From positions 22,208,419 to 22,272,418 of the forward strand of contig NC_052480.1 of NCBI RefSeq assembly GCF_009730915.1: DNA of 64,000 nucleotides. The letters run 5' to 3'. This document shows positions 1-58,676 of the stretch, in pieces. The notes beneath the pieces are model-generated. The model did no database searches, was not told the origin of the DNA, and saw only the letters and a list, made by a program, of their open reading frames with translations. This DNA is from Dioscorea cayenensis subsp. rotundata (lineage: Eukaryota; Streptophyta; Magnoliopsida; Dioscoreales; Dioscoreaceae). Position numbers and translations under genes: made by a program. Within the stretch, counting starts at the first letter, position 1; the number at the start of each line of letters is the position of its first letter.

Positions 1-2746
1 GCAAATGATCTTCCAGAACTTGTGGATCTATTCCACTCATATGGTCATAAGCCTACAAAGGACAATGTAATTATTAGGACCTGCTGGACTTCAATTCATA
101 GCATGTGATTAAATCACCTCATCTTGGGGCAGAGTTGTTGCTGAAGGCCCGGGTTGTCCTCCATGGCCACCATTGCCAGTGTTAGTTCCTTGGAGATGAA
201 TACAAGCTGGATTTGAATTACAAACCAAGAAGGAACTTTTGTTTACTATCATTAAATTACCTGTTGTCCATGAAACCTTTTGTTATGTCCTGCAGCTCCA
301 CATATGCTGCAAGTGATTTTCTTTCCTTTCTTGCTCACTTTTCCATTGAAAAATCCAATTTTCTCAGCTGCATCTTTCCTTCTTATCATAGTCTTCTGCC
401 CTCTTTTTTTTTTATCCTAGCTTCAGGTGGTATCATAGGGCATTGAGGACTCTTTGGCCAGCAGCTTCTGTCCTGTGAAGGGTACAAGATATGGCTAGAT
501 ATGGCTAGAAAGGTTGACACCTTATAGCAGTCGTCTATATAATCCTCTGGCTTGTCATTGTTGTAATAAATTGCAGAAATGGCATGAGAACAAGGCACTC
601 CTGTTAATTGCCATCTTCTACAAGTGCATGTTTTTTCCTCTTTGTTCACCACAAATTGTCCATCATTGGATATAATTTCGTATTGGTCTCCCCCTGACCA
701 TGCTATATTATGAGAGTAAGTCATTGCCTTTGCTTTTTCCAATTTTTTAAGTATCTTGGGACAAAATAGATTTTCTGAATTTTTCATTGAATCTCTTTTC
801 CTCTGAATTCTGCACATTAGTTGTGTTCTAATGGTCTCATTTAGTGTCACAATCCCTTTGTTTCTAGCACCAAGTATCAAACTTTTTGCCCTCCATGCCT
901 TCAGTCTTGTAATGTTAACTTGCTGATTTTTCTTTACAGCTTGCATGATGCCTGCTACTGACCAGCCTGGATCTACCCTGAATTGATCCAAATAATGCTC
1001 AGCAACCCATTTTGTACTCACATGTCTCACATTGTGATCCCTGGTGCACTCATGTTTGAGGATTCTAGATTTTATTTGTATAGTGTTCTGGTCTTTAATC
1101 ATAGGAGCTGCCCATAAATAGAAAGGACATCATTTCTTGCAAATAGCCTTGCACCTTTTCTTATTACTGGGCCTAAAATTCATTACGTACCTATTCTTAA
1201 TTCCATAGCTCCTAACAACCTCCTTGAATTGATTAAAACTGCCGAACTTCATTCCAATCTCAAAATGTGGGTCATTCATATCCAATTCAGCTTGAAAATC
1301 TGAATACTTGGGCTTTTCTGTGCCATCTCCTTCTTCGTCTGTCTCAGAACATGATTGCAACACCCCAGATCCATCACCTTCAGAATCAGCTTCATTCATT
1401 GTATTATTTTGATCTTGAATCCCTTGTCTAGTTTAATAGTCTTCATCCGCAGACTGCCTATAACCTTCTGTACTGTCATTGTCCTCGTCATTAACCATTT
1501 CATCACTTTTGAAACTATATTCAGAATCTTCCAACTCACTCCCATCATCATCCCCTCCTTTCTGTTGCCCATGACTCGCCTCATCAATATTTCCATCACC
1601 TTGTTAACCATCTATATTTCCATCACCTTGCTCACCAACATCATCACGTTGCTCACCAACATCATTGTCCGTTGTAACTGTCTTAGAAACCTTAGCAAAT
1701 ACATTTACTACCTTCTTGTGGCTAAGATTTAGAGCCAAGTCCAAAGCATCTCCATCATTGATTATCTCTCTCAGCCCTGCAGTCAAACTTCTACAATCCA
1801 ACCACCAAAATGTAGTCCCATCTACTTCCACATTCATCTCCTTTGCCATATTTAAAATCTCTAATTTGGAAATCTTATCGTGGCAACAATAATCAGCAAA
1901 ACTAACAAACTCACGGCCATCGTATTTGTGTACTTCACCATTTGTAGAATACAATTTAATTGTAAAATAGTCACTACCAGGTGCTGAAAAAAAACCAAAT
2001 ATGTGTTCAATTCATTGTACGAAATTGTTTCAAATCTGAAGAGATTTTGTTATTATATCACAAACCAGAAAGACATAATCCAACATATAAAAAACCTAAT
2101 AAACTATAAACTATTCAACTGGAAAAACCTAAAATATAAACTACTCAATTGGGAAAACCTAAAACCAGTGTAGATGCAAAATTAAAACAAAAATAATGCA
2201 ATGTCTTACGGTAAAATGGTGCTTCTGTGTTGGGTGGCCTTATCAGCCAATCAACTTCCATGTCTTCCCGATCAAATCTTCTGAAGATGGTCGGTCAATT
2301 TGGTATCTTGGTGTGCGCTCTGGAGGTGGTCTGCGTCCCTGGTTTCTCACCGCCTACTCTCTCTGGGAACTCTGCTCTATTTCGGCAAACAAAGAGGAGA
2401 AGAAGGTGGACGGCGGGAGATAGTTAGGGCAACCTCTGCTCTCTCTGTGAACGAACGCGAAGGAGACGAAGTAGAAGGAAGAAGAAAGGGGTAAGTTGTC
2501 CACGTGGCTTAGAATTGGGTGACGTGGATAAGTTGTCCCCGTGGCTTTTCCATGCGTGCAAGTCAGGTGGGAATTAAATTTCCACGTCAGATCTCCGGTT
2601 GACACACCAGCTCTCAATCACCGGAATAGCCACAGTGCCCTCCCTGTGAAAGCAAATTAAATTAAAGTGCTCACTTTGATACAAATTAAAAAAAGGTGCT
2701 CAAAATGAAGCACGAGCATAATAAGGTATCCCACAAAAAAAATTAC
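1..2746 (-). mobile_element. MULE element, left end outside window
   Basis: The transposase relic is preceded (2262-2746) by non-coding DNA whose outermost part, read on the minus strand from about 2746, begins AGGGTAATTTTTTTTGTGGG. This looks like the long terminal region of a plant MULE. No matching inverted copy is visible in 1-385, so the other end probably lies left of the window. The right boundary is inferred from composition and is approximate. A 9 bp target duplication cannot be tested with only one end. Confidence 0.5.
386..2261 (-). pseudogene. MULE (Mutator-like) transposase, internally deleted
   Basis: Exon 1 is 2210-2261 (starts MEVDWLIRPPN). A GTAAGA donor and a TTTTTTTCAG acceptor remove intron 1984-2209. 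Exon 2 (1983 down to 386) continues in frame with a PB1-like N-terminal domain (YFTIKLYSTNGEVHKYDG), an acidic linker, the MuDR DNA-binding region (FEIGMKFGSFNQFKEVV), then LKHECTRDHN..STKW. It next jumps, near 860-880, straight to the C-terminal part with a SWIM zinc finger (CTCRRWQLTGVPCSH). The central DDE transposase core, normally a few hundred residues, is missing, so it cannot catalyse transposition. The frame is also cut by in-frame stops at 1604-1606, 1433-1435 and 1130-1132. An A-run slip near 406-415 puts the terminal zinc knuckle (CSICGAAGHNKRF, about 290-330) out of frame. The family assignment is firm; functional loss is clear. Confidence 0.85.
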
Positions 2747-7313: not shown

Positions 7314-10300
7314 ATCCCCCACATATTTCAAAAGAACCAATCACACAGGTAAAAATTTTTCTGGAACTATATGGGTGCAACATATTAGTTTAGTGTCTTT
7401 TAGACTATGAACTAAACCTAGATTAATGAAGTACGACTTACTGAATTTTTGGTGAAATATGATATTTCTATGAACCAACAATTCTTGTTGTATGTAAGAG
7501 ACTTCATCAATCATATTGTGAACCCATAATTTGTTGTTCAACGCGTTCTTGTGCAAATAGGCCATACGCATGCCTGGTTATTCATGAGAGCTCTAAAGAT
7601 TTGGCCAAAAAATCTTAATAGGAGCGACCCCACTCCACTCTCATATAGGTGAATTCATCAAGTGTATCCTGCTTTAAATACACCATCTTTAAGGATTATA
7701 AATTCATTAAGAGTTCTTTAACTCATCCTCACAAATTATAGCAGTCAAAGCACTCACTATAAAAAGAACTTAACTTGAAGTGCTGCAGAGTCAATATTTA
7801 CTTGTTATTACCCATATGAACCTACTTCAAGGGGTCTCCAATCATATAGGTTGGGTTGCCATCTTTATTGACTACTTGTAGGCCTAAGTCCCATTTCCCT
7901 AGAAGTTTGAAGAACTAATTTTCTTCCCGTAGGTTTAGTCAGAGGATCGGCCAAATTCACTTCCGACTTCACATATTTAATGGAAATTATTCCATCTTTC
8001 AGCAGCTGCTTTACAACATCATGTCTCAATGTCAAGTGTCTACTTTTACAATTATAAGACTTATTTTTAGCACGCAATAGCCGCTTGACAATCACAGTGT
8101 ATAGACACAGGAGGTAATAGATCCTTCACTGAAGGAATGTTGGCTAAGAAGTTTCTTAGCCAATCAGCCTAAGACCCTGTCAACTCTAAGGCTACAAATT
8201 CTGATTCCATAGTTGATCTAGCAATAATTGTTTGTCTAGCTGATTTCCATGCTATTGCACCACCACCAAGCGTGAACACATAACCACTAGTGGATTTTGT
8301 CTCATTTGAATCAGAGATCCAATTAGCATCACTGTAACCTTCTAATACAGTGGGATATCCACTATACAGAATACCATAGTTCATGGTACCTCTCAAGTAT
8401 TTCATTAGTCTAACCAACGCATACCAATGTTCACGATTGGGATTTTGAGTATATCTACTTAGTCTACACACAACATATGCAATATCAGGTCTTGTAAAAT
8501 TCATTAGATGCATCAAACTCCCAATAATCTGAGCATATTTAGACTGAGCAACTGGGTCACCAAAATTTTTCTTCAATTGAATATTAGCATTATAAGGAGT
8601 ACTCATTGGTGTCACATCAAAATTTTCAAAATCTTAAGAAGTCTCTCTACATATGTTCTTGTGACAACATAATACCATCATCTCTCCGCATGATTTTAAT
8701 ACCCAATATCATTTTTTCTTCACCTAGATCTTTCATATCAAAATTAGAAGATAGAAAATATTTGGTACTTTTTACAATATCTAAACTAGTACCAAATATG
8801 AGCATATCATCCACATACAAACTAATGATCACATATTAATCATTTACACCTTTAGTGTAAACACATTTATCCACTTCTATAGATGAAAACCCATCATTTA
8901 TCAAAATTTGATCAAATTTCTCATGCCACTGTTTAGGAGCTTGTTTTAGGCCATAAAGAGATTTAACCAATTTACAAACTTTATTTTCATGTCCAGAAAT
9001 AACACATCCCTCGGGTTGAACTGTATAAATTTCTTCTTCTAAATTACTATTTAAAAATGCTGTTTTAACATCCATTTGATGAACATAAAGTTTATGGATA
9101 AAAGATAGTGCAAAAAGAACTCGAATAGAAGAAATTCTTGTCACCGGTGCAAATGTTTCAAAATAATCAATATTTTGCTTTTAAGAAAATCCTTTTGCTA
9201 CTAAATGAGCTTTATATTTATCTATGGAGCCATCTGGATTATATTTTATTTTGAAAATCCATTTACAGCTAATTGGTTTTGCACCGGGGGTAAATCTACT
9301 AAAACCCAAGTTTTATTTTTCATAATAGAATCAAATTCATTTTCAATTGCTTCTTTCCATAATATGGCATTGGAAGAAGAGATAGCATCTAAATAAGTTA
9401 ATGGATCATTGTCAACAAGAAAAGTTTGAAAATCATTTCCATAACAAAATTCTTTTCTTGACCTTTTGCTCCTTCTTAATTCCTCATTAGAGGTAATTTC
9501 TGTATTTATCTCAACAGGTGCATGAGAAATTTTATTAGACAGTGGAAAAATATGTTCAAAGAATTCAGCATTCTTTGTCTCAACTATTGTATTGCAATCA
9601 AGTACATCACTTTTTAAAACAAGAAATCTATATGCAACACTATGCTCAGCATATCCAATGAACATACAATCAGAGGTTTTAGAACCTATTTTTCTCTTTT
9701 TAGGTTCAGGTAATAATACTTTAGCAAGACACCCCCACACTTTCAAATATTTCAAATTGGATTTATAATCTTTCCATAACTCATAAGGTGTTTTTCCAGT
9801 TCTTTTATGTGGAATCCTGTTTTGTAAGTGACATGCAGACAAAATGGCTTTCCCCCACAAATTGTTAGGAGCATGAGAGCTGATTAACATGAAGTTCATC
9901 ATTTCTTTTAAAGTTCTATTTTTCCTTTCAGCTACTCCATTGGACTCTAGTGAATAAGGAGGTGTTATCTCATGTATTATGCCTTCTTGTTCACAAAAAT
10001 TATTTAGAAGTAAATACTCACCTCCTCTATCGGATCTAATTCTTTTAATTTTCCTAATTAGTTGATTTTCTACTTCAGTTTTATATGTCAAAAATGCATT
10101 ATGAGCATCATCTTTATTTCTAAGTAAATAGATTTTAGAGTATCTAGAATAGTCATATATAAAGGTAACATAATATCTTTTACCTCCTCTAGTCATAGCT
10201 TACTTTAAATCACCTAAATCTGTGTGAATTAAATTTAATAATTCAGTCTCTCTATTGACAGTTATACAAGTTTTATTTGTTATTTTGGCTTCAGCACATA

Positions 10301-11760
10301 TCTCACATTTCTCCAAGTTATCATTATGAATGCCGGATAGTAAACCAAGTGATTGCATTTTCTTTATATAACTAGCATTAACATGTCCTAATCTAGCATG
10401 CCATAAATAAATTGAATCAACAATATAAGCAGAATAAGATGCATTCTCCATTATAACATTTGAAATGTTAAGTACAAAAAGTCCCTGGTTACAATAGCCT
10501 TTTCCCACAAATACATTGTTCTTGGTCATTACAATTTTGCCATACTCAAATGACACTTTTACCCCAACTTTTCCTAACAGAGCCACAGAAATCAAATTTG
10601 CTCTGATATTTGGGATATGCAGTACATCATTAAGGGCTAAAGTTTTTTTCCTGAAGTGAGCTTCAAAAGCACTTTTCCCTTACCCAAAGCCTTAGTAGAT
10701 CTTGAATCTCCAAGGTAGACCACTTCTTCATCATCCCCTACTAGTGTATAGGAGGAAAATGCTTCTCGATTTGTACATATGTGCCAAGTAGCCCCAGAAT
10801 CTACCACCCATTCTTTCACATTAGCTACAATGTTCACTTGAGAAACAACAACAACAATAATTTCATCTCCTTCAGCCAAATTAACCTTAGGAGGATTAGC
10901 CTTGACCTTTCTCATTTTTATATCGATTTCTGCATTGAGGAGCATGATGACCAGGTTTCCCACAAACAAAGCAAATGCCTTTCTTTTTCTTGAAATTGGG
11001 ATTATTAGGCTTGTAATTTTGGGACTTATGTTCGTATCTTTTATTATTGCTTTGCACCAAATGCGCTTTGAAGGTCATCTCCTTGGCTTTGGCAACATTC
11101 AACTCCTTTCTGTTAGTGTCTTCAATCGGTATGTGAGTCACGAGCTCCTCAATAGTGAAAGCCTTTTGCTTGTGCTTTAAGCCATTCTTGTAGTCACTCC
11201 AGGAATCAGGCAGCTTTTCAATCAGCACTCCTCACTCCTGCAACAAACTTTTCTGGCAATATGATTTCTTCACTCTTCAAGTCTTCAAGCAATTTTTGAT
11301 ATTCATTGATTTGAACTTTCATCTCCTTGTCATCAGTCATTTGCCAGTGATAGTATTTTCCTACGACGAACTTTTGCTTTGGTTGCATCTTCAGCAGTGA
11401 ACTTCTTTATTAATGCTTCCCAAATCGTTTTAGCTTCCTTATAGCTGCAATAGATGTCAAATAGTTCATTAGAAATAGTATGTAAGATAGTGTGACGACA
11501 TACCTTATTGGCATGTTGCTACGATTCTTGTATTTTCGCATCATCGGTTGAAGGAGGTTGCGGATCAGTTAGAGCATATGCAACTCCATGAACATCAAGC
11601 AGCGAAAAATACACGTTCTTGCCACCTTTTGATGTTATCGTTTGCAAAAGCTTTGATCTTGGATACGTCAAGAAAAGGCTTAGCATATGGCAAGTTGATT
11701 GGGACAATATCTTGTTGAGATCTATTAAATTTAATATACCAAACTCATACAAGTTCTATT
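6985..11760 (-). mobile_element. Broken Ty1/copia retrotransposon
   Basis: A minus-strand copia fossil with the usual order. Gag region about 10.9-11.75 kb with a CFVCGKPGHHAPQC knuckle. Protease region with WVVDSGATWHIC near 10.8 kb. Integrase region 9.25-10.6 kb with WHARLGH and SDRGGEY. Reverse transcriptase/RNase H region 7.87-9.25 kb with VDDM and LADPLTKP. It is clearly dead, interrupted about eight times. Only the 3' LTR is recognised; the 5' LTR is missing or unrecognisable, so age cannot be taken from LTR divergence. The state of the internal region suggests it is old. The right boundary is uncertain between about 11760 and 12180. Confidence 0.85.
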
Positions 11761-24542: not shown

Positions 24543-26458
24543 CTATGATCCATGTTCAAATTGCAACAGATAAGCAAAACCAAAAAAAAAAATACGGCCC
24601 CAAGTTCTCGTCACTAGAAGTAACAGTGCATTCAGGCCTATAGAAGAAATGTACAAGTTGCAGGCTCTGAGTTTTTGTCCAGGATATTCAGCATCATAAT
24701 GTATCTTGGTTACTACCTCTTTGATTGTGTTCACTATCTCATCCTTTCTATCTGACAGATATATAACAAAGTGTGCACCTGCATGTTAAAATTTCAGCTA
24801 GTGAATTTCAGTAATATAATGCAATAACATTAACTGAATCAAAGGAATTGAAATCAGTCTTGGTACAATATTGCATCGTAATTATGAGTTTATAGGCCAC
24901 GTACTCAATTGCGCAGGGAAAAAAAAACAGACCCCTCAAAACTTACCTGCAATTTTAACAGTCGATCAATTAATTAGGAAATACAAATTGAAGGGAAGAA
25001 GAGAAACCTTTAGTTTGTGTCAAATCTATTTCAATTGCAAACTTGATTTACTGACATAACATCAAAGACATGCAAGTATAAGAGAAAAAACTAAAATGCA
25101 TTTATTCACCTGAAGATGCATGGTCAGAGTTTGAGAATACAAGGCATAATAGAAGGAACAAACAGGTTAATTTTTGTAGTTCAAACACACAAATGTTAAA
25201 CAAATACAATTCATTTCTAAAGATTTCTATGGTGATTAATCATAAACAATGGCTTGCATAGATAGTTAACATTCTGCAATGCATGTGTACTGAAATGCCT
25301 GAAAGGAGAGGTGCCTGATAGTTCTCAACATAAAGGGTTAAACAAGATATTAATATAATGATTGTTTCATTCTAAACAATTGAAGGGAAATTATACTTCA
25401 AATTGAGATGCTATTACAACCATGAATATAGAATTTCATAAGAATGGATCAACCCATGAACCAAAATTAAACTTTAGCAAACCTTGATTGGAAGCACTTT
25501 TTCCAAAAAGAAAGTCACAAGAGAAATTCTTCTACCATATTCTGATCTACAAACAAGAAACTATTTACCTTTTTCTTTGCAAAAACCTTAGATATGGAGT
25601 TAGCTCCTTTTTCTCAGTCTGAATTCTTGTCAACCATCATCTTCCTCATCTCCATTGGATATAAAAAGGATTATCATCACCATTGCCATCACCATTACTA
25701 TCACTATCGCTATCCCTATCACTACCACTATCTTTATCACTATCACTATCACTATCATTATCACAGTCACTATCACTTTCATCAGATGCATCATTTGCCT
25801 CAGCGGCCACATACTGATCATATTTCCATTATTGTTGTCATCATCAACTGCATTATTTATCTCAGCAGGCTCATTGCCACCAGGTTTATGTATCATCTGA
25901 AGAACTGCATTCTCATCCATGTTATTGACAGCAGGTAACTCATTGCCACCAATTTCTTCGATCATCTGCAGAACTGGATTCTCATCCATATCATTGACAG
26001 CAGGTAACACACTGCCACCAAGTTCATCTTTCATCTCAAGAATTGCATTCTTATCCATGTCACTGCCAGCAGGTAAATCAACAATTTCAGTAACACTCGC
26101 TTGATCAGAATCATCTGTTGTCTCAGCAGGCGCTTCATTACCACCACTATCATTGGCATGAGAACCATTTAATGAACCATTTAGTTCAGCCGGTACACTA
26201 TCATTACTGTCGGCAGCATCATCACCTTCACCTACATCTTTTGTTTCAGATGACACTCTCTCATCACCATCACCATCATCACCATCATATGCATCTTTTA
26301 TCTCAGTTGGCATGCTCTTATCATTGTCGTCATCACTATCATAATCATCATCAGATGAACTTTTTGACTCCGGTGACTTACTCTTCTCCTCATCATCTTT
26401 TTCCTTCTCCTCCCCACCATCATGATCATCAGCATTTTCCTCCTCATTCTCTTCCCAC

Positions 26459-26495
<37 letters not shown>

Positions 26496-29400
26496 TTTCG
26501 TCCCCATCCTCTTCCTCCTCATCCTCATCATATTCCTCTTCCTCCTCATCCTCGTCATCTTCTTCCTCCTCATCATATTCCTCCTCCACCTCATCATCAT
26601 CATCACCAACCTGTTTGACCAAAATAATGATATGCTTGTTAAGAAGTTATTTCAGAGAATTTGATGAACATGCACTCCAATTTCTATATGTTGGCAAAGT
26701 CAAGGAAATTTCTGTTTTCAGGAGTTCAAACTTTTTTAGATAAACAGGCAAATTTATATGAATTTCAGTACCTCATCTCCTTTTGAACATGTTTCACCAG
26801 ATGATGACTGACCAACCGCTTCTGTTCTCTTGGGATTCGTTACTTCCTGAAATAAACCTACTCTAAATTATGCCAGAAGATGATACACTACAAGAAAGTT
26901 ATTGTTTAAAAACAGAATATTACAAACGGAATTTATTTCGTTTCTACTTACAACCGATTAGCAACGGACAAACAATCGTTTTAAATATAATCTAAACAAC
27001 AACGGCTTACAAACGACCAATGTAAAATATCATTTATTTAAATATTAGAAAATATCCGTTTCTAATCCGTTTTTAATAGAAAGGAATTTAGAAACGGAAT
27101 TAAAAATTAATATTTTAATTAAATATTATTAAATATTAGAAAATATCAGTTTCTAATCGGGTTTTCAATGAAACGATTTGAAACGGACTTAAAAATTAAT
27201 ATTTTATTTAAATATTACTAAATATTAGAAAATATCCGTTTCTAATCCGTTTCGAATAGAAAGGGATTAGAAACGGTTCTAAATATTAATATTTTATTTA
27301 AATATTTTTAAAATAATTAAAAAAATATCCGTTTCTAATCCGTTTCTAATAGAAAAGAATTTAGAAACGAACTTAAAAATTAATATTTTTATTTAAATAT
27401 TACTTAAATATTAGAAAATATCCGTTTCTAATCGGATTCCGAATAGAAAGGGAATAGAAACAGTTTCAAATATTAATATTTTTATTTAAATATTATTAAA
27501 TATTAGAAAATATCCGTTTCAGATCCGTTTCTAATAGAAAGGATTTAGAAACGGATATAAAAAATAATATTAGTATTTAAAAATTATTACACATCTGTTT
27601 CTAATCCGGTTTACAATAGCAGTGATTAGAAACGAGCTTAAAAATTAATATTTTTATCTAAAATATTATTAAACGTTAGAAAATATCCAGTTTTCAATCC
27701 GTTTCGAAATAGTTCAAATATTAATATTTTTTTATTTAAATATTATTAAATATTAAAAAAATATCCAGTTTTTAAAACGTTTCTAATAGATTCCGAAATA
27801 TTAAGTTTGGGAATTGTTTCCATGTTTGACTTTTTAACATCACAAAAAAATCAAGTACATGTCCATTGTTAAAACTGTATATATTAGCTGATATAAATTT
27901 TTAGATAAATGCTAAAAAAATATAGTTATTATTCATTACCATAAAATTTTACATAAGAGCAAGGAAATATCCTTCAGCCATACTCAAACATTACCACAAA
28001 AATCATTTTTATTTATTTTTTAATTATAAAAAAGGACATTCTAGAAGAAGCGCCCTCTTTCGTTCTCTTTCTCATTGTACCAAGAGTTGGGGAAACCAAG
28101 AGAGGGGTGAGGAGAGGCGGCGAGGGTGGCGGCAAGCTGAAGATCCCCTTCCCTTCTGAGTCCTCCCAAACGCTCTTCCAGATCGCCTCATCTCCTCCTC
28201 CGGTGTGCTCTCTCTCTTCACCGCCTTTATCCCCTTCTCTGTCTCCTCTGTTACCCTTCTTCTCTTCGTCCTGGTGACCACCGATGTCATTTGCATCGCT
28301 GCCAGATCGCCTTGCAACCGCGCATCTGTAAAGGCAGCGCGATCGTATGCCTTCGCCGCTTCAACGGCGGTGTCAAAGGTACCAAGCTAGACATGAGATC
28401 CCTTCCGATTTGGATCTCTGATCTCCGCCGCATACTTCCCCCACGGCCGTTTCCTCACTCCACGGTACCTCCTCATATCCCGTGCTGGCTCCGGTGCCGG
28501 TGCCGGTGCCGGTTCCAGTGAATCATGCCACTCAAACACGGGCGGTGGCGGGTGCTAGATGGATAGCGCGGCGGGTCGGCGTTCTGGGTCGAATCTGAAA
28601 CTAATAATGAGCGCAACTAAGTTTGGGATCCGATAACAGTAAGGATCCGCTGCTAAGTCGGTGAAGAAGTCTGGTACCGCGTTGGAATCACCGAGAAGAT
28701 GCTCGCGTATGAGGACGAGCACGAAGAAATCCGCTGCTAGGTTTGATTACGAGCTAGTTTTTTCTCTATGGTTTGGGACCTCTCCGGCGCCAACCTCCAT
28801 CCAATCCTATCTGAATTCGCTCCATTTCGGTATGGTATTTCGATTCTATTGATATTCTCTCTTGTTGTTCCTAGGATTTTCCCCCTTTTTTCTTTGGTGT
28901 GTGTTGGGATTCTAGGGTTTGGGATTTGATGCACTTGTTTGCAGGTGTGGGGGTTTGTGGAAGCTGTAGGAGCTGATTTGGAATTTTGGGGGTGATTTCG
29001 TTTCTAGGTTTTGGAACAAACAAATGAGGTTTGTAGAAAATCAATTTAAATAAAGTTTTTGAGGCTATTGCTATTCCATTGTTGTTAGGAAACCATCCAA
29101 AGTTGCACAAAGTACAGGACTAGCCATGAAAGTAAATCCCCAGCATGCATTATTTAGTTTGATTCAGTCTAGCTATCTTTGTAGAGTTTGTTTCACAACC
29201 ATTGAGCTATTTTTATTTTTATTTTTTCTGATATTTGATGGAGTTCTTTATTGTTGGTTTTATCATATTTTAGGTTTTGAATTTGAATGAATTTGCTGCT
29301 TTATTTGGGTTGTGATTAGAATTATTTGCATGTAATGATCAATAGATTGATATTTCCAAAGCACTAAAATGGCGCTTCTCCAGTTAATTGTTAGGTGAAT

Positions 29401-32400
29401 GGACTGGTATCCTACATTTAGTTGGGACACCTCACATAGAGTGTAAGTGGCTGCACTTGTGGCTAAAAGAGACTCCTCTAGTTCCTGAATAGTTTGAGTG
29501 ATCTTTTGAACCTCCATAACCTTCTGATGGTTTGTTTTCCTCCTGCAGCATGAAGAAGACATTCATTTAGGTGAGCAAGTCAACTGATGAAGCTTATTGT
29601 CTTAATACGGTAAACAATCTCAAACTTTGCCTGCAAGATTGCAGTTTGTCTCTTCAACTCAAGATTTTGATTCCGCATGTTCTCTACTATCAATACTTGT
29701 TCTAGAGTACTGCACAGGATTTTTCTGCTTCGACCAATGCCATGTCCTTGGACTTAGTTACTCTGTCGATAACCAATGCCACTGTTGTGCAAACATCAGA
29801 TCATACTTTATTTATTTTATTTTTAACAATTTTGTTTGTTTTTTTACCATTATTATTATACACATTAGAGCAATATTCTTTTTATGGTTAGGACTTGGCT
29901 GTTGTTTGGAAGATAGCACTCTTTTATTAAGTTATTTTTTATACATTTGATAACATCATTAGATTACATCATCAAAATTTACTGGTTATGTAATTATAAT
30001 CAATGTTTAGGGGCAACATGCCATTTTTGACTTGTCTTTGATGTTAATTCAAAGTTAAACATGCCGGTTTTTGTTAGGTGAGATTGAAAGTACAAGCTAA
30101 TGATTCTATGATTAGATTAACTAAAACCTACTTGTCTTCTCCTTCTTTTTATGTTTCATGTTTTTATCTTCTTTAATGTAATGATTGTTTGGAAAATCCC
30201 CAATGCTTAATGCAGGTATGTCTTTTTGGTTTTTTTAATCTTAAGATTAGGGTTTTTGCCAGATCTGATGATTGTTTTTCATGTCAAAATTTGATCTTTT
30301 TTGCAAGGGGCTTTGTGGGACTGGATTGAGTTGTTGTTGGACTGTGGGATGGGAAAAAAAGAAAATTAGGTTTGTGATTTGATTCTCGTAGATTTTCTCA
30401 TGTTGTGTTTGTAGAATTACTCCCTTTTTTTTTTTCTCCAATGAAATTTCATGTTAGATGTATTGGAGATGACAACGAATGCCCTATACTCTCTATGATA
30501 ACTGCAAACTATCTAGTCTTAGCATTCACTCTTATACAAGTTGCTTTTCAATGTCTCAGTGTGTTATTTTTCCTTCCATGGCTCTTTCGCTGCACTTTCA
30601 TAAGACTTATGTGTTAAGCTTTCTCCACTTTTGTCCACTTAGTGTCATGAGATATATATATATATTATATGTTCTTTTTTTCTTTAGTGCTTCATCCTGG
30701 TTTAGGTTTCATGGTGAATCCATAGGCTGGACTAGAGATGCTTGGTTTTGTTATGCTGGTATTGAAATTTAATGTTGTTAAATTTGTGTATTAAGGGGAA
30801 TTTTCTTTTGGTTTACTCCCTTTCAGTTTGGTCATTTGTCTCATCTTTTCTCCTGTGCTGTTATTTAGCAGTTCCATTTATTAATGAAGTTGGTTATTTT
30901 GCTCTTGTATACCTTGTAACTATTTCTGTATTATTTCGTTTGTTTTGTCTTGGGTTGTCTAAGCTTTATTAGGGGCTTGTGGTTGGTATGATTTCATACT
31001 TCTATGTTTTCTCTTCAACAAAATTTTGGTTTTGGGTTTACAAAATATGAAATTTTGTTTTGTTATTGGAGTTCAAATTGAGATGGAATAATTTTTTTTT
31101 CTTTTTGGGTGGCCATGGTTAGAGGTTTTAACTTTGGTGGGGATTGGTATTCCTGTGCACGTTACTCTCGAAGAGTTTCCAAAGGACTAAATTGAGAGAA
31201 TGGGTGGAAAAATTCTCAAAAAGCACGATTACTACGCAAGGTTGTCGAGGGCGGCCGGGCGATGACAGCTAAGCCAGTCAGGGTCGATGGGTTCAACAGG
31301 GTCGAGCAGGGATGAGCAGGGGTCAATAATTAAATATAAAAATATTATAATAATTAATAATAAGCAAATATAATATTAAATCGATAATTATATTATAAAA
31401 CACTCTCAAATTTGATATTTAAATTGATAAATGACTTTATATCTGAGTAGAGTTTTTAATTTTGGTCATTTATTTTTTATATTTTTAAATATTTACAAAT
31501 TTAATATATTAATATATAATTATCAAAGCTTCTCTCGGTGTTATTTATTTATTTATTTGTTTATTGGTTGATTTTGTTAAAATAAATAAAAATTTAATTC
31601 ACTAATTCTTATATCGAGTTTTTATTTTGTTTTTAAATTTTTCTTATATTTTTATTTAATTAGAATACTTTTAATTTTTATATTTTTTTATAATAAAAAT
31701 TACACTCATTTATTGTTTTATTTTCTTAATAAATTAAATTTTTAGAAAATATTTACATAATACATTAATATATTTTATTTTTAAATGTTAATTTTTGTTG
31801 GTATATATATATATATATATATATTGTAATTATTTATTGATTATAAATTATAAATTAATATTAATAAATATACTAGCGATTTTTAGTGGTTTTTAATGAG
31901 AAAATAATAATAAATTATTAAATATTAGTAAAAAGAAAATTAAATACATTGATGGATCGATTGGCCGTGGGTCAGCGAGTTCCGATTGAACAGCCTGAGA
32001 TCCAGCGTTAGCCGTGGGATTTTTAATACCCGGGTCAATGAGGTAAATCTGCGGGCTGACCCACATGGCGGTTCGGTTTTCCGTTGAACGGCCGTGGCCG
32101 GTCCGGGTCAAAACAACATTGGTTACTTCTGACCCGCTTCATATGATTTCAATATGATTTATCTTTATATATATGTATATATAATCAACTTTTTCATCTA
32201 TCAAAAAGGATAAAACCCTCTAATACCTCTAAACTTTTAGGTCAATGTTCATTTTAGCTTCTAGGCGAAAAATATTTGTTTTAGCACTTAAAGCGATATA
32301 AATGTTTGCATAATCTATAAATGGCATGAAAAGTCGGGTTTATGGAATAGGGTCCCAGCTTTGTATCTTTTATCCCGACATTCATCTTCGAGTTTGTCCA

Positions 32401-35221
32401 CGGGTTCATCATCCGAGGCACTACGTCTCGAGGTTAGAGATTTGCATCAAACTCTTGAGTCAAGTCCAAGATAGTGAGGAGAGGTTTCAGCAGACACTTG
32501 GCCAAGTACAGAGATAATATGAGGAGCTTCAACAAAATTTGCTTGAAATGAAAGAGAGACCATGCAGGGACTCATAAACCAGTTTTATTGGCAATCGTAA
32601 TGTTGATTTATAATTGTATTTAGTCGTATCTTATTATTTTTGTGTTGAACATATATACTTAAACATTTATTTTTTTGTATGAATTGATGAGTTTATCTTA
32701 TTTATTAGCATTGTAGGTTAAAAATTATGTCTTGGGTTTTTAAAAATCGGGGATATAATTTTTATTTTTATTTTTATTGACTTAAATGTTAGAAATGGAT
32801 TAGAAAGCGGATTTATTTGTTTGAATATTGTTTTTGAAAATTTAAAAACTTATAGAAAACGGATTAAAACAAAAAGCTATTGTTTCTAATGGGAGAACAA
32901 AAATAAAAGCAGAAAATATTACTGTTTGAAATACATTTCTAATTTTTGTAACTATGGTTTCTAAATTCAGAAAGCAATTACTAGCGAAAATTTAGAAACG
33001 GATTAACTAACATATCTTTATTCAGTTTTAATTTTTCAAAAGTTAGAAACATATTGCTTCCGTTACTAATCCGTTTCTAATTTAGAAAGCGGAGCATTTT
33101 TCCGTTCTATTTAAATTAGAAACAAGGGTATTTGAAACAAATAAATTCTTTTTCTAATCTATTTCTAAATTGAATTAGGAACGGATTAGAAACAAAAATG
33201 TTGTTTCTAAACAATAGCTTTCTTGCGAGTGATATGTCTAAACGGTGTGCAAGTTAATCTCAACAAATATAGCAAAGTTATAGTAGGAATAAGACCTCTT
33301 CTTCATCAAGTTGAGTGTTCCTAAAATCATGGGGGCATTTTAAAAATGTCATCAACTTTTGGGAGAGCTCTTTCTGTAAGTGCGGCGCAAGTTAAACCGT
33401 AAATCTTCATTGTTCATATTTAGAATGAAGAAAGTCATAAAATAGAGTTTCTAATTAAGCAACCTTAGTGTTTTCAGTTGTCACATTTCTTATATCAAGC
33501 AAGTTGCAAATATCCAACAACTGATATTTTTTATATTTAGCAACTTTTCTCTGCAACTTCTTCTCCTTTCTTTCCTACAAAGAGAAATTTGATCGGCATG
33601 TAAACAAGCTATCAAAAACAAGGCATTAAGTGTTGCACAGAGATTCTGAACCACAGATCTTTGTTCACATACGAATAACACCAGAAATGAATTTATTACG
33701 TAAAACATCATGCCAGAAAATCAAAACTATCACCACAAATAGGAAGGAAAATTACCTCCTCTTGAGGACCCCATAAAAATCCAGAAAATCGCAGTATATT
33801 TCTCTTCAGATCTTTGTTCTGAAGAGAAATAATTCCATTAATCAATACAAACTTGAACAAAAATTAAGCAATAGCTTTACAAGAAACGCGTCATGAAAGA
33901 AACTATACCTTCACCTTTACCCCATAAAGAATAATATGAAAATATCGAAGATCAGCATCAATGTCTCTCATTCTCAAATTTGAAGACACTAAAGAATTCA
34001 ACAATATGAACAACATCAAGCCAACAAAAATCGAATCATTTTGCAACTATTCAAACTATTATGAATCATACATTCAGTGAAAAGATATAAAAAAAGAGAG
34101 TAACATGAAACAACATCAGTCTTTCTCTTTTTGCAAATTTAAAGACACTAAATTTAACATTATGAACAAACATCAGGGCATAAAAAATCAAATAACTGTG
34201 CTAATATTCAAACCACCATGAATCATAGATCCAGGAAAAGATAAAAAAGAGAGTGACATGAAAAGATCAAGATCAGCATCAGTCTTTCCTTTTTTTCAAA
34301 TTTAAAAGACAATAAAAGATTTCGACATTATGAACAAAACATTAGGACATAAAAAAATCAAATCAATGTGCTAATATTCACACCACCATGAATCATACAT
34401 CCAGGAAAAAGATTAAAGAGAGTAACATGAAAAGATCAAATTAAGCATCAGTCTTTCTCTTTTTTTCAAATTTAAAGACACTAAAGAATTCAACATTATG
34501 AACAAACATCAGGGCATAAAAAATCAAATCATTTTGGTAATGTTCAAACTACCAAGAATTATTCATTTCACGAAAAAGATATAGTAACATTAACAGGGTC
34601 AAAGATCAGCATCAGTCTTTTCTCTTTTTCAAATTTGAAGACACTAAAGAATTCAACAATTAAGAACAAAACATCAGGGCATAAAAATCATATCATTTTG
34701 CTAATATTCAAACTACTAAGAATCATACACTTTGCTAATGTTCAAACTACCAAGAATCATACACTCCATGAAAAGATAAAAAGAGAGTAACATCAAAAGA
34801 TCAAGATCAGCATCAGTCTTTCTTTTTCAAATTAAGAACGGGCATCAGGGCATAAACAATCACATCATTTTTGCTTAAATTCAAACTACCATGAATCATA
34901 CATCCAGGAATTAAAAGATAAAAAGAATTAATCCACAAAGATCAATGTACCCTTCTTGATGTCCCTCAGCTTAATTCCAAGACCCTAAAACCACAAGAAA
35001 GGTTCCAATTTCAATAGAGAACCATATAAAAAGAAACCATAAGCGATTCCAATAGAAAAAGAAAAACATCAAGAACCCTAATTTACCTCCGAGATGCGCA
35101 AGAGCCTCCTCTTCCGGAACTCCGCCGGTCCATAAAAATGGACGGGTTTTCGCTTTCGCTTTGGCCTACCCAGCGCGAGTGCTTTGTTCTCTTCCGGGTT
35201 CTGATCTCCTTCGCCGGACAT
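24543..35221 (-). CDS. DEK-type chromatin protein, many exons
   Basis: Exons found, all GT-AG and in frame: 35087-35221 ([11 protein letters not shown]..), 34951-34984, 33909-33988, 33756-33818, 33464-33574, 33296-33373, 26772-26846, about 25630-26610, and probably 24543-24778. Visible regions: [54 protein letters not shown], then a SAP-like DNA-binding segment ([27 protein letters not shown]). A long Asp/Glu tract follows, and a last piece [16 protein letters not shown] resembles the DEK_C end. DEK proteins bind DNA and histones in the nucleus and shape chromatin. An in-frame TAG upstream supports the start at 35221. The intron 26847-33295 holds a 6.3 kb CACTA element. The 3' exons between 25630 and 24778 are not resolved, so the C-terminus is uncertain. 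Confidence 0.82.
25655..25790 (-). repeat. GATAGT microsatellite coding Ser-Asp
   Basis: A (GATAGT/GATAAT)n tract. In the phase that starts [20 protein letters not shown] it encodes a Ser-Asp run. In the phase open from upstream it would give an artificial Ile/Val-rich tail. See findings. Confidence 0.7.
25855..26061 (-). repeat. Three 69 bp in-frame repeats in the acidic exon
   Basis: Three 23-residue units follow one another: [20 protein letters not shown].., [20 protein letters not shown].., [20 protein letters not shown]... The period is a multiple of three, so copy changes keep the frame. They lie between the Asp/Glu tract and the Ser-Asp tail of the DEK-like protein. Confidence 0.85.
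26449..26500 (-). repeat. GAT triplet microsatellite (poly-Asp)
   Basis: An ATC/GAT run encoding eleven to twelve Asp residues in the acidic exon of the DEK-like gene, flanked by GAG/GAA-rich Glu codons. Confidence 0.85.
27045..27800. repeat. CACTA subterminal repeats, nine units of about 90 bp
   Basis: Nine degenerate copies begin AAATATCCGTTTCTAATCCG, continue with AATAGAAAGGATTTAGAAACGG and end in an AATATTTTTATTTAAATATT spacer. Each holds an inverted pair of CCGTTTCTAA and TTAGAAACGG. In CACTA elements such subterminal motifs are transposase-binding sites. Confidence 0.85.
28040..28740 (-). pseudogene. Captured ERF (AP2/ERF) gene fragment
   Basis: Minus strand, inside the CACTA element. 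Order: an N-terminal motif [19 protein letters not shown] (near 28640-28710), a Pro-Ala linker, the AP2/ERF domain [19 protein letters not shown] then [19 protein letters not shown] (28340-28470), a basic stretch (TKRRRVTEE) and a C-terminal motif [19 protein letters not shown] (28075-28160). The plan matches intron-less group IX (ERF1-like) transcription factors. Broken by an in-frame TAG at 28387-28389 (replacing the domain's Trp), another at 28555-28557, and at least two frame changes after the domain. Not functional as an ERF. Confidence 0.85.
28741..29400. other. CACTA cargo, gene-leader-like DNA
   Basis: Less AT-rich than the surroundings, with CTAGGGTTTGGGATTTGATG and TGTTTGCAG/GTGTGGG text reminiscent of a plant 5' leader intron. 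No open frame is convincing. Probably host DNA carried with the ERF fragment. Confidence 0.35.
29440..29720 (-). pseudogene. Captured coiled-coil exon fragments, MAP70-like
   Basis: Minus strand. After an acceptor-like TTCATGCTGCAG (29546) comes EENK, then, one phase off, [20 protein letters not shown] and [12 protein letters not shown] (29430-29545). This closely resembles the HRQKV.EVEKL.QT..ELEEA segment of plant microtubule-associated MAP70 proteins. A second open piece at 29600-29720 reads [19 protein letters not shown], another heptad-rich stretch. Both lie inside the CACTA element and lack the rest of the gene. Confidence 0.5.
29721..31236. other. CACTA interior, no gene recognised
   Basis: T-rich, intron-like DNA with short chance frames. 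An AT microsatellite lies at 30653-30668. Nothing coding is supported. Confidence 0.4.
31237..32121. mobile_element. TIR element nested in the CACTA element
   Basis: The left end CAAGGTTGTCGAGGGCGGCCGG is mirrored by CAATGTTGTTTTGACCCGGACC on the minus strand at the right end. The two GC-rich ends flank an AT-rich, gene-less middle with a TATATA tract near 31802-31824. Target duplication is not clear. Confidence 0.5.
32385..32577 (+). pseudogene. CACTA transposase C-terminal relic
   Basis: [20 protein letters not shown] then [15 protein letters not shown], an in-frame TAA at about 32515, then [19 protein letters not shown] and a stop. The pattern of a coiled coil before a short C-terminus fits the end of Ptta/En-Spm transposases. 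The catalytic part is absent from the element. Confidence 0.55.
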
Positions 35222-56178: not shown

Positions 56179-58676
56179 TTAGCCGAAATTTCTGAAAGGA
56201 GCATCCCTTGAAGAAATTTGCAAACAAAAAAAGGCTCGCACTTGTCTCTCTTGAGATTTCGCTGGTGAAATCAAGTTCTTAACTGTCAGACTTGCTTTCC
56301 CAATTTGCTTCTTTATAGATTCGATTGTCTCAGCTTCCGCATTGTTTCTGGAAATCTCTGAAACGTAGAATGTATTGATCGCTTCGCCATTCTCTGTCGA
56401 AATCTCTGCTCGTTTAATGCACAATCCGTTTTCACGGAATATTCTAGTGATGTTTGAGAGTAGGCCTACTTTGTCTTCCGCTCTAAGTTCCAACTCCAAT
56501 CCCTCTGATGCTCGCCTTTCAATAGCAGCCTGAAGACACTGAATTATACGCTTTCGACCGGAATCTGATTGTATCGGTGACCCATCTACATGACGAATGT
56601 AATACTCCTACAACAAAACAAGACAAACATTAACAACTTCTTAGACAGACATCATATCTGTGTAATGTACATGTTAGCTAATCTATACCTGATATGCTTC
56701 CTCATTGCCAGTGTTTACAGTGCCATGAAACACAACGTAGTTCATATCAGTAAGAGTGCAAACAGTATCAAAGAGAAGCTTAGGCCTATCCTTACACTTC
56801 AAAATCACAACAGTATAGTCTCTCTCGACGCAATCCATAACAACAACATTTGGCCTCTTCAATGTCTCCTCTCCGTCAGACATTCTAACTCTTTCATAGT
56901 CCCTATCATCAAACATCATCTGATGAAGTCTTCTCTCAGTGTGAGTAACAACCCCGGAAACCGACATATTTGGTGTCTTCACCTCACTGTCACCCTTCAA
57001 GACATTGCATAGAAATTGCTTAATTGTTGAGAGTCTGTCAGTGTCTTCAATAGGCCGCCTCTTAGACTCATCGGTCACATGCAACACAGCGGCGATTCGA
57101 GCATTGTGAGTCCACACCTTCGCCTTCACTACATTGCATTTTAAATTAGTAAGTCCTGCGCAAACTTCGGACAATAATCCAGGCCTGTCAGAACCTATCA
57201 GCTCAATCGAAGTGTACTTTTCGGAAGGCGTAACACCTACAGAGCTCCTGACTGAAGAATCCAAGCAGCATGCATCTGTTTCCAATCTCTAAAAAAAATT
57301 ATACATGAAATTTGGTTAATTTAGTTCTAAATTTTCTACATCAATATCAAATCAGAAAAAAATTTCATGCTTACTCCTTGTATGCAATTGAGAATCTCTT
57401 TGTCCCATACTTTGTTTCCATCACCATCAGTGACATTGAAAACTGAAAGTTTCAATTCATAACATGAGAAAAATGTACAAATTCAAGCCTGTATATTCTT
57501 TATACTCGTTTTCATCTTCTGATTTCATAATGTTCGATAAAACTCTCACTTGATATGTGATCCACAATATATATTTATGTTTAATTTTTTAAACAATGAG
57601 ACACTGATAGACTAAATCACCATCCTCTTCCAACCAGAATTTAATGTCAACCGGGTAAAATGAATTAAGAATAGTATACTTTGGATCATATATAACTCTG
57701 CAATTGTCAGCTCCAAGCCCAAATAAGAAAGAGGGCTGCCATGTTGGCAGCTGAGAGCCAGCAATTAAACTTTTGTTTAAACACAAGAGCCATGAACCTT
57801 GTTGTTTGGTTTTTGAAACAACTAATAAGATACTAAAGTGGCAAAATTTGATCGGCTTGATAGACTATATCACCATCCACTTCTAACCTGAATTTCATAT
57901 CAACTGGGTAACATGAATTAGTAATAGTATAGTTTGGATTATATATAACACTATCAATGCTATCCCCAAGCCTAGATGAAAATAGAGGAGAGTAGCCATG
58001 CAGGGCAGCTGACAGCCAGCGGTTAAACTTTTGTCATAACATAAAAACATAAATCTTCTTCTTGTTGTTGTTAATCATTTGGATTGTATATCTAGTGGCA
58101 GTTATATTGGCATTTTGAAAGTAGACAACAAAAATGAACATTATGGCAAAGTACACAAGGAAAAATACGGCATTAGTCCGACATTATACATACCATCCAT
58201 GAACCAACTGCCATCAGAGGATATGTATGCTTTGGTGATGATGAGATGAAGATCAATAAGGACTTGAATCACTTCAAGAAGCACACCATGCTTCTTAACA
58301 CAATCAACCTTAACAACATATCAATGTTTTCTTCAATCAGTAATCAATCATACTAAGTAAAACAACATCTTTGGAGAAAAAATTTACCTTAATAACAGTG
58401 GCATTATCACAAGATTCATTGTCAATCACAACCCTGAACAACAAAAGGTCACAGAATGTTAACCCTAGAACAAATCCAAAGTTGTTTTGTTCACATCAAA
58501 GAGACAACTTTTTCATTGAAAAAAATAACAAATGAACATGAACTTCAAAATCAATGAAAGATTAAAAAGAAAAAGAAGAAGAAGAAGAGAGCAACATACC
58601 TTGGAGGATTCAACCTGGAAATGAGCCTTGCAAACACATCATCCTCAACATCAAAAACATCACCATAACTGTCCAT
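56179..58676 (-). CDS. ACT-domain-repeat (ACR) protein, six exons
   Basis: Exons 58600-58676, 58388-58433, 58194-58308, 57375-57442, 56689-57288 and 56179-56607, all GT-AG and in phase, give about 444 residues. Four ACT-like units are visible: PPRVVIDNESCDNATVIKVD then WFMDVFNVTDGDGNKV; YTSIELIGSDRPGLLSEVCA; YTVVILKCKDRPKLLFDTVC then EYYIRHVDGSP; and LELELRAEDKVGLLSNITRI. ACT domains bind small ligands such as amino acids. Plant ACR proteins are thought to be amino-acid sensors related to bacterial GlnD, without its enzyme part. The start MDSYGDVFDVEDDVFARL is the usual N-terminus. The C-terminus (after KSQERQVRAFF) is atypical and may be species-specific. Confidence 0.93.
57598..58075 (-). 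repeat. Coding-like tandem repeat in ACR intron 3
   Basis: Two copies (57598-57810, 57850-58070; offset about 254 bp) on the gene's strand. One reads VIYDPKYTILNSFYPVDIKF, WLEEDGDLVYQ; the other VIYNPNYTITNSCYPVDMKF, RLEVDGDIVYQ. The conserved phase suggests they come from an exon of an unidentified gene. They enlarge the intron to about 750 bp, while the gene's other introns are under 170 bp. Confidence 0.6.

Follow-up and report, generated by a model that had tools for sequence, protein, structure and literature searches.

A probable CACTA element carrying ERF and MAP70 gene pieces within a DEK-like gene intron of Dioscorea cayenensis subsp. rotundata

The stretch of DNA analysed here, referred to as the window, is 64,000 nucleotides long and carries on its minus strand a DEK-like gene, one intron of which contains a transposable element of the CACTA type. 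Elsewhere in the window lie a decayed Ty1/copia-type retrotransposon (7900–11700, minus strand), with domains of reverse transcriptase, integrase and gag-pre-integrase spread over different frames, and a Mutator-like transposase remnant (100–2340, minus strand), with a SWIM zinc finger at 4.3e-9 and a MuDR DNA-binding domain at 3.8e-5, the latter just under the cut-off. Open reading frames with ACT domains at 56179–57288 (minus strand) probably represent a plant ACR-type gene. The DEK-like gene was rebuilt as a model of eight exons, as follows.

35087–35221, minus strand: exon 1, with the start codon (open reading frame and GT donor)
34951–34984, minus strand: exon 2 (splice borders and phase; within the DEK match)
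33909–33988, minus strand: exon 3, revised start, acceptor TTCTTTAG (better match to 2jx3)
33756–33818, minus strand: exon 4 (splice borders, phase, DEK match)
33464–33574, minus strand: exon 5 (splice borders, phase, DEK match)
33296–33373, minus strand: exon 6, 78 nt, residues 142–167, phase 0, the last exon upstream of the insertion
26847–33295, minus strand: intron 6, 6,449 bp, GT...AG, containing the CACTA element
26772–26846, minus strand: exon 7, 75 nt, AG/GT borders, phase 0, the first exon downstream of the insertion
25630–26610, minus strand: exon 8, coding for the acidic tail and closed by the TGA stop, a long open reading frame with a frameshift suspected near 25813–25822

All seven introns of this model are bordered by GT and AG, and its exons are open in phase. 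The rebuilt protein matches human DEK (2jx3) over residues 43–156 (E 1.8e-7, 34.4 bits), upstream of the insertion, and has a SAP-type DNA-binding region as in 2jx3, by which DEK proteins are recognised; the preliminary description, which had called the gene DEK-like, is borne out. A start of exon 3 at 33964 was dropped in favour of 33988, which has the better acceptor and with which the score against 2jx3 rises from 27.9 to 34.4 bits. Searches of the DEK part of the model against Pfam and NCBIfam named no family, the two NCBIfam queries having no match. Apart from intron 6, the introns measure 102, 962, 90, 181, 90 and 161 bp, and the 962-bp intron holds a tandem array (intron 2, 33974–34729; units of about 164 bp, 4.6 copies). 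Since the unit includes the exon 3 acceptor (33988) and the first exon bases, the growth of this intron seems to be due to duplication of an exon edge.

The match to DEK does not extend beyond residue 156, which falls within exon 6. Exons 7 and 8 are therefore tied to the gene by their splice borders, phase and acidic composition rather than by homology; on these grounds they probably belong to the same gene as exons 1–6. Exon 8 is open for 326 amino acids, whereas 300 shuffles gave at most 126. In its tail (25633–25857) the acidic sequence seems to change frame near 25820, where the model frame turns rich in Val, Ile and Met while another frame reads Asp/Ser repeats; this would be either a true frameshift or an assembly error. 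The same coding tail contains a 69-bp in-frame tandem repeat (25870–26080, 3.1 copies). Downstream of exon 8, a candidate piece at 24546–24785, which by eye looks DEK_C-like, gave no DEK_C or PDB match.

Between exons 6 and 7, the ends of the element and the duplicated target site are placed as follows.

26886–33231, no strand assigned: CACTA element, non-autonomous, 6,346 bp (terminal repeats, subterminal repeats, target duplication)
33232–33234, no strand assigned: target duplication ATA, copy 1
26883–26885, no strand assigned: target duplication ATA, copy 2
26886–26921, plus strand: left terminal inverted repeat, imperfect (end-to-end alignment)
33195–33231, minus strand: right terminal inverted repeat, imperfect (end-to-end alignment)
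27035–27804, plus strand: left subterminal array of units of about 93 bp, with the CCGTTTCTAATCCGTTTCTAA motif (overlapping tandem-repeat rows, motif excess)
32750–33231, no strand assigned: right subterminal stretch, same CCGTTTCTAATCCGTTTCTAA motif in both orientations

The left end of the element is CACTACAAGAAAGTTATTG and the right end, read inward, is CACTCGCAAGAAAGCTATTG; aligned to each other over some 36 bases, they show one gap and several mismatches. They begin as CACTA-type terminal inverted repeats, CACTACAAG... and CACTCGCAAG..., the right end being CACTC and not CACTA. The local score of the terminal repeats is 22, a value reached by none of 2,000 dinucleotide shuffles (maximum 15). 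From the 56 CACTA and 161 AGTG sites in the window, 36 pairs could be formed with a left CACTA, a right AGTG, equal outer 3-mers and a spacing of 0.5–20 kb, and among these the pair that bounds the element scores 16 and the runner-up 8; in the opposite orientation (left CACT, right TAGTG) the top score among the 56 pairs in the window is 8. Equal flanking 3-mers on their own would be expected with a chance of about 0.018. The flanks both read ATA, and a 3-bp target site duplication is given as a feature of the CACTA superfamily in PMC8978399.

The subterminal regions are dense in TTTCTAA/TTAGAAA, with 20 copies in 26886–27830 (maximum 4 in 500 shuffles) and 14 in 32750–33231 (maximum 3 in 500 shuffles), and thus hold the direct and inverted repeats by which the superfamily is also known. 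Because terminal repeats, duplication and subterminal repeats all agree with the description in PMC8978399, the element is taken to be of the CACTA type. Within the window, the 9-mers of its ends have no further exact copies (CACTACAAG occurs solely at 26886 and CACTCGCAAG solely at the right end), and a self-comparison of the window listed no part of the element outside it at 50 bases or longer; decayed copies may still be present. The structure is very probably that of a CACTA (En/Spm-type) element, carrying pieces of host genes, inserted in an intron of the DEK-like gene.

Taking the element (6,346 bp) and one ATA (3 bp) out of the 6,449 bp of intron 6 leaves 100 bp, bordered by GT...AG on the minus strand, and an intron of this length would have been ordinary in this gene, as five of the six others measure 90–181 bp. 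The preliminary description had proposed a CACTA insertion in a 100-bp intron, flanked by exons at 33296–33373 and 26772–26846 that are in frame; the ends at 26886 and 33231, with repeats above all 2,000 shuffles and ATA on both flanks, the arithmetic with its GT...AG borders, and the two exons, both open and in phase 0, confirm each of these points. It is very unlikely that exons 6 and 7 belong to separate genes, one DEK-like and upstream, the other for an acidic protein and downstream, with the CACTA element in the intergenic space. Such an arrangement would suit the end of the DEK match at residue 156, inside exon 6, and the shortness of exon 7, which has just 75 nt and no homology, and unspliced read-through from exon 6 meets a stop after five further codons (VLFLL), where a short DEK-like protein could terminate. 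However, the two exons are both in phase 0, have GT and AG borders and would be separated by a 100-bp intron without the element, and an acidic stretch following the DNA-binding domain is in keeping with DEK proteins.

The interior of the element carries pieces of two host genes and one further remnant.

28330–28473, minus strand: captured AP2/ERF domain fragment (Pfam AP2 1.3e-11), with one in-frame TAG and a frame change just downstream
29443–29782, minus strand: captured MAP70 fragment, in pieces 29705–29782, 29616–29705 and 29443–29542, with two frame shifts
32421–32574, plus strand: remnant of coiled-coil-like pieces in changing frames, with matches all below curated cut-offs

In a six-frame Pfam scan of the element, AP2 was found at an E value of 2e-10, which became 1.3e-11 for the isolated piece, and comparison of this piece with the AtERF1 structure 2gcc gave 5.3e-19. 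Additional ERF-like sequence, judged by eye only, flanks 28330–28473 on both sides. MAP70 was found in the same scan at 6.6e-6 (25.6 bits, for a cut-off of 27). Its last exon alone reached 2.9e-8 (33.4 bits), above the cut-off and free of any inflation by the choice of junctions; the middle piece alone gave 0.0067, and the first piece alone had no Pfam match. The three pieces, which are in the correct order, gave 4.3e-19 when joined by hand, a value inflated by the choice of junctions. The middle piece is separated from the last exon by a retained 73-bp intron (29543–29615, GT...AG, phase 0), which argues for the capture of genomic DNA rather than cDNA. Both the AP2/ERF and the MAP70 pieces read in the sense direction of the DEK-like gene, on the minus strand. 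The earlier account of what the insertion brings was right as to repeats, given the dense subterminal motifs, and incomplete in that these pieces are also carried on the DEK sense strand, a type of cargo that in soybean Tgm-Express1 ended up in chimeric transcripts by splicing.

Two other regions of the interior stand out by composition. The plus strand of 28570–31200 is mostly T-rich, has an intron-like look and is perhaps more captured DNA, and 31237–32122 is a very AT-rich core between less AT-rich borders. The latter was considered as a nested transposon, from a 9-bp match of its ends (CAAGGTTGT / CAATGTTGT), and was rejected, since the ends score 7 against a shuffle mean of 8.7 and a maximum of 15 (n=500).

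A six-frame Pfam scan of the whole element, on both strands, with stops written as X and E values accepted up to 1, found no transposase, although a decayed one could go unnoticed in this way, like the one piece of MAP70 that had no match. With no DDE transposase gene found, by which an autonomous CACTA element would be known, the element is classed as non-autonomous only. Host coding DNA captured between CACTA ends, which defines Pack-CACTA elements, is present as the AP2/ERF and MAP70 pieces, and it is from these pieces and the transposase result together that the element is described as non-autonomous and Pack-CACTA-like, with decayed cargo. A different history, in which an old autonomous CACTA element lost its transposase by decay and received the ERF and MAP70 pieces as later nested insertions, is rather improbable: the coiled-coil-like remnant at 32421–32574 could be a relic of an element protein and the captured pieces are indeed frameshifted, but the scan detected no trace of a transposase in any of the six frames at E values up to 1.

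On the Pack-CACTA-like reading, the element would first have captured genomic segments of an ERF transcription-factor gene and of a MAP70 gene, and a transposase made elsewhere would then have put it into the AT-rich, 100-bp, phase-0 intron, duplicating ATA. This transposition step, with its outside source of transposase, is suggested by the behaviour of the CACTA family. Since neither host splice site falls within the element, the 6.4-kb intron would most likely still be removed in part of the transcripts, and such partial correct splicing of intron 6, judged by analogy, is held with moderate confidence. The remaining transcripts would stop prematurely within the element or take up parts of it; early-ending or chimeric RNA probably makes up some of the output, by comparison with soybean precedents. 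The donor of intron 6 scores lowest of the seven (3.97, against 5.44–8.84, on a donor scoring matrix), and 30 of the 223 GT sites in the intron outscore it on the same matrix. On the sense strand of the element AATAAA occurs 38 times, against a mean of 19.2 and a maximum of 35 in 200 shuffles, and on the other strand 9 times, against a shuffle mean of 8.7; the excess on the sense strand could favour early termination.

These features, namely the weak donor, the AATAAA signals, the stop met on reading on from exon 6, the apparent frame change in exon 8, the DEK part to which Pfam and NCBIfam gave no family and the DEK_C domain that was not found, mean that the DEK-like gene may be decaying and partly or wholly out of use, unless an assembly error is involved. 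In its full form, this would be an inactivation by the insertion, such that transcripts stop inside the element and what follows downstream is a decaying remnant of exons, which keeps the structural reading and differs on the splicing step only. It draws on the weak intron 6 donor, on the AATAAA excess on the sense strand and on the apparent frameshift in exon 8 together with the missing DEK_C match. It is nevertheless considered rather unlikely, as all seven introns keep GT/AG and the eight exons are open in phase, the exon 8 frameshift could be an assembly error, and a soybean intron with a 13-kb CACTA element is accurately spliced (PMC4219821). Beyond partial correct splicing, the ERF and MAP70 pieces might be spliced as cassette exons into DEK transcripts to yield chimeric RNAs, as at soybean wp. 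Both pieces lie on the DEK sense strand and the MAP70 piece has a working-looking intron and acceptor; the outcome is held to be unlikely here. If true, a chromatin gene would be producing chimeric RNAs with AP2 or MAP70 sequence.

With this locus, ERF and MAP70 join the genes known from the interior of CACTA elements, and no principle is changed. Its structure is clean: the ends and the target duplication are exact, and the earlier intron can be computed at 100 bp. It could serve as a natural experiment on the response of a plant gene to an intron 64-fold longer that is full of gene pieces in sense orientation and of poly(A)-like signals. Among the matches listed from open-licence PMC papers, a weak guide, the combination of a DEK host with ERF and MAP70 cargo was not named.

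Several known systems resemble this one. In soybean, Tgm-Express1 (the wp allele) is a 5.7-kb CACTA element that lies in intron 2 of F3H and carries captured gene pieces; both correct and chimeric transcripts arise at this locus (PMC1947982). It shares with the present element the intronic position, the similar size and the carriage of exon and intron pieces of host genes; it differs in having five captured genes and both kinds of transcript documented by RT-PCR, whereas here two frameshifted pieces are recognised. The soybean TgmR* element, a 13-kb CACTA in intron 2 of the R MYB gene, also lies within an intron with the host splice sites outside it, and RNA-seq showed accurate splicing, at lower levels, in the soybean line in which TgmR* is more methylated (PMC4219821). 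That element is larger, and its accurate splicing is tied to its methylation. Pack-CACTA and other Pack-TYPE elements likewise have CACTA-like ends and a target duplication around captured gene DNA, with no transposase found (PMC8903248); the present element, of which a single copy is visible in the window, is a candidate member of such a mobile family. In rice, more than 10% of genes contain intronic heterochromatin and their transcription is regulated via a mechanism involving OsIBM2 (PMC7145194); the DEK-like gene has a long, transposon-filled intron like theirs, and by analogy one may guess that it depends on an OsIBM2-like factor. Each main feature of the locus has a close published precedent, and the phenomenon is already known in other plants.
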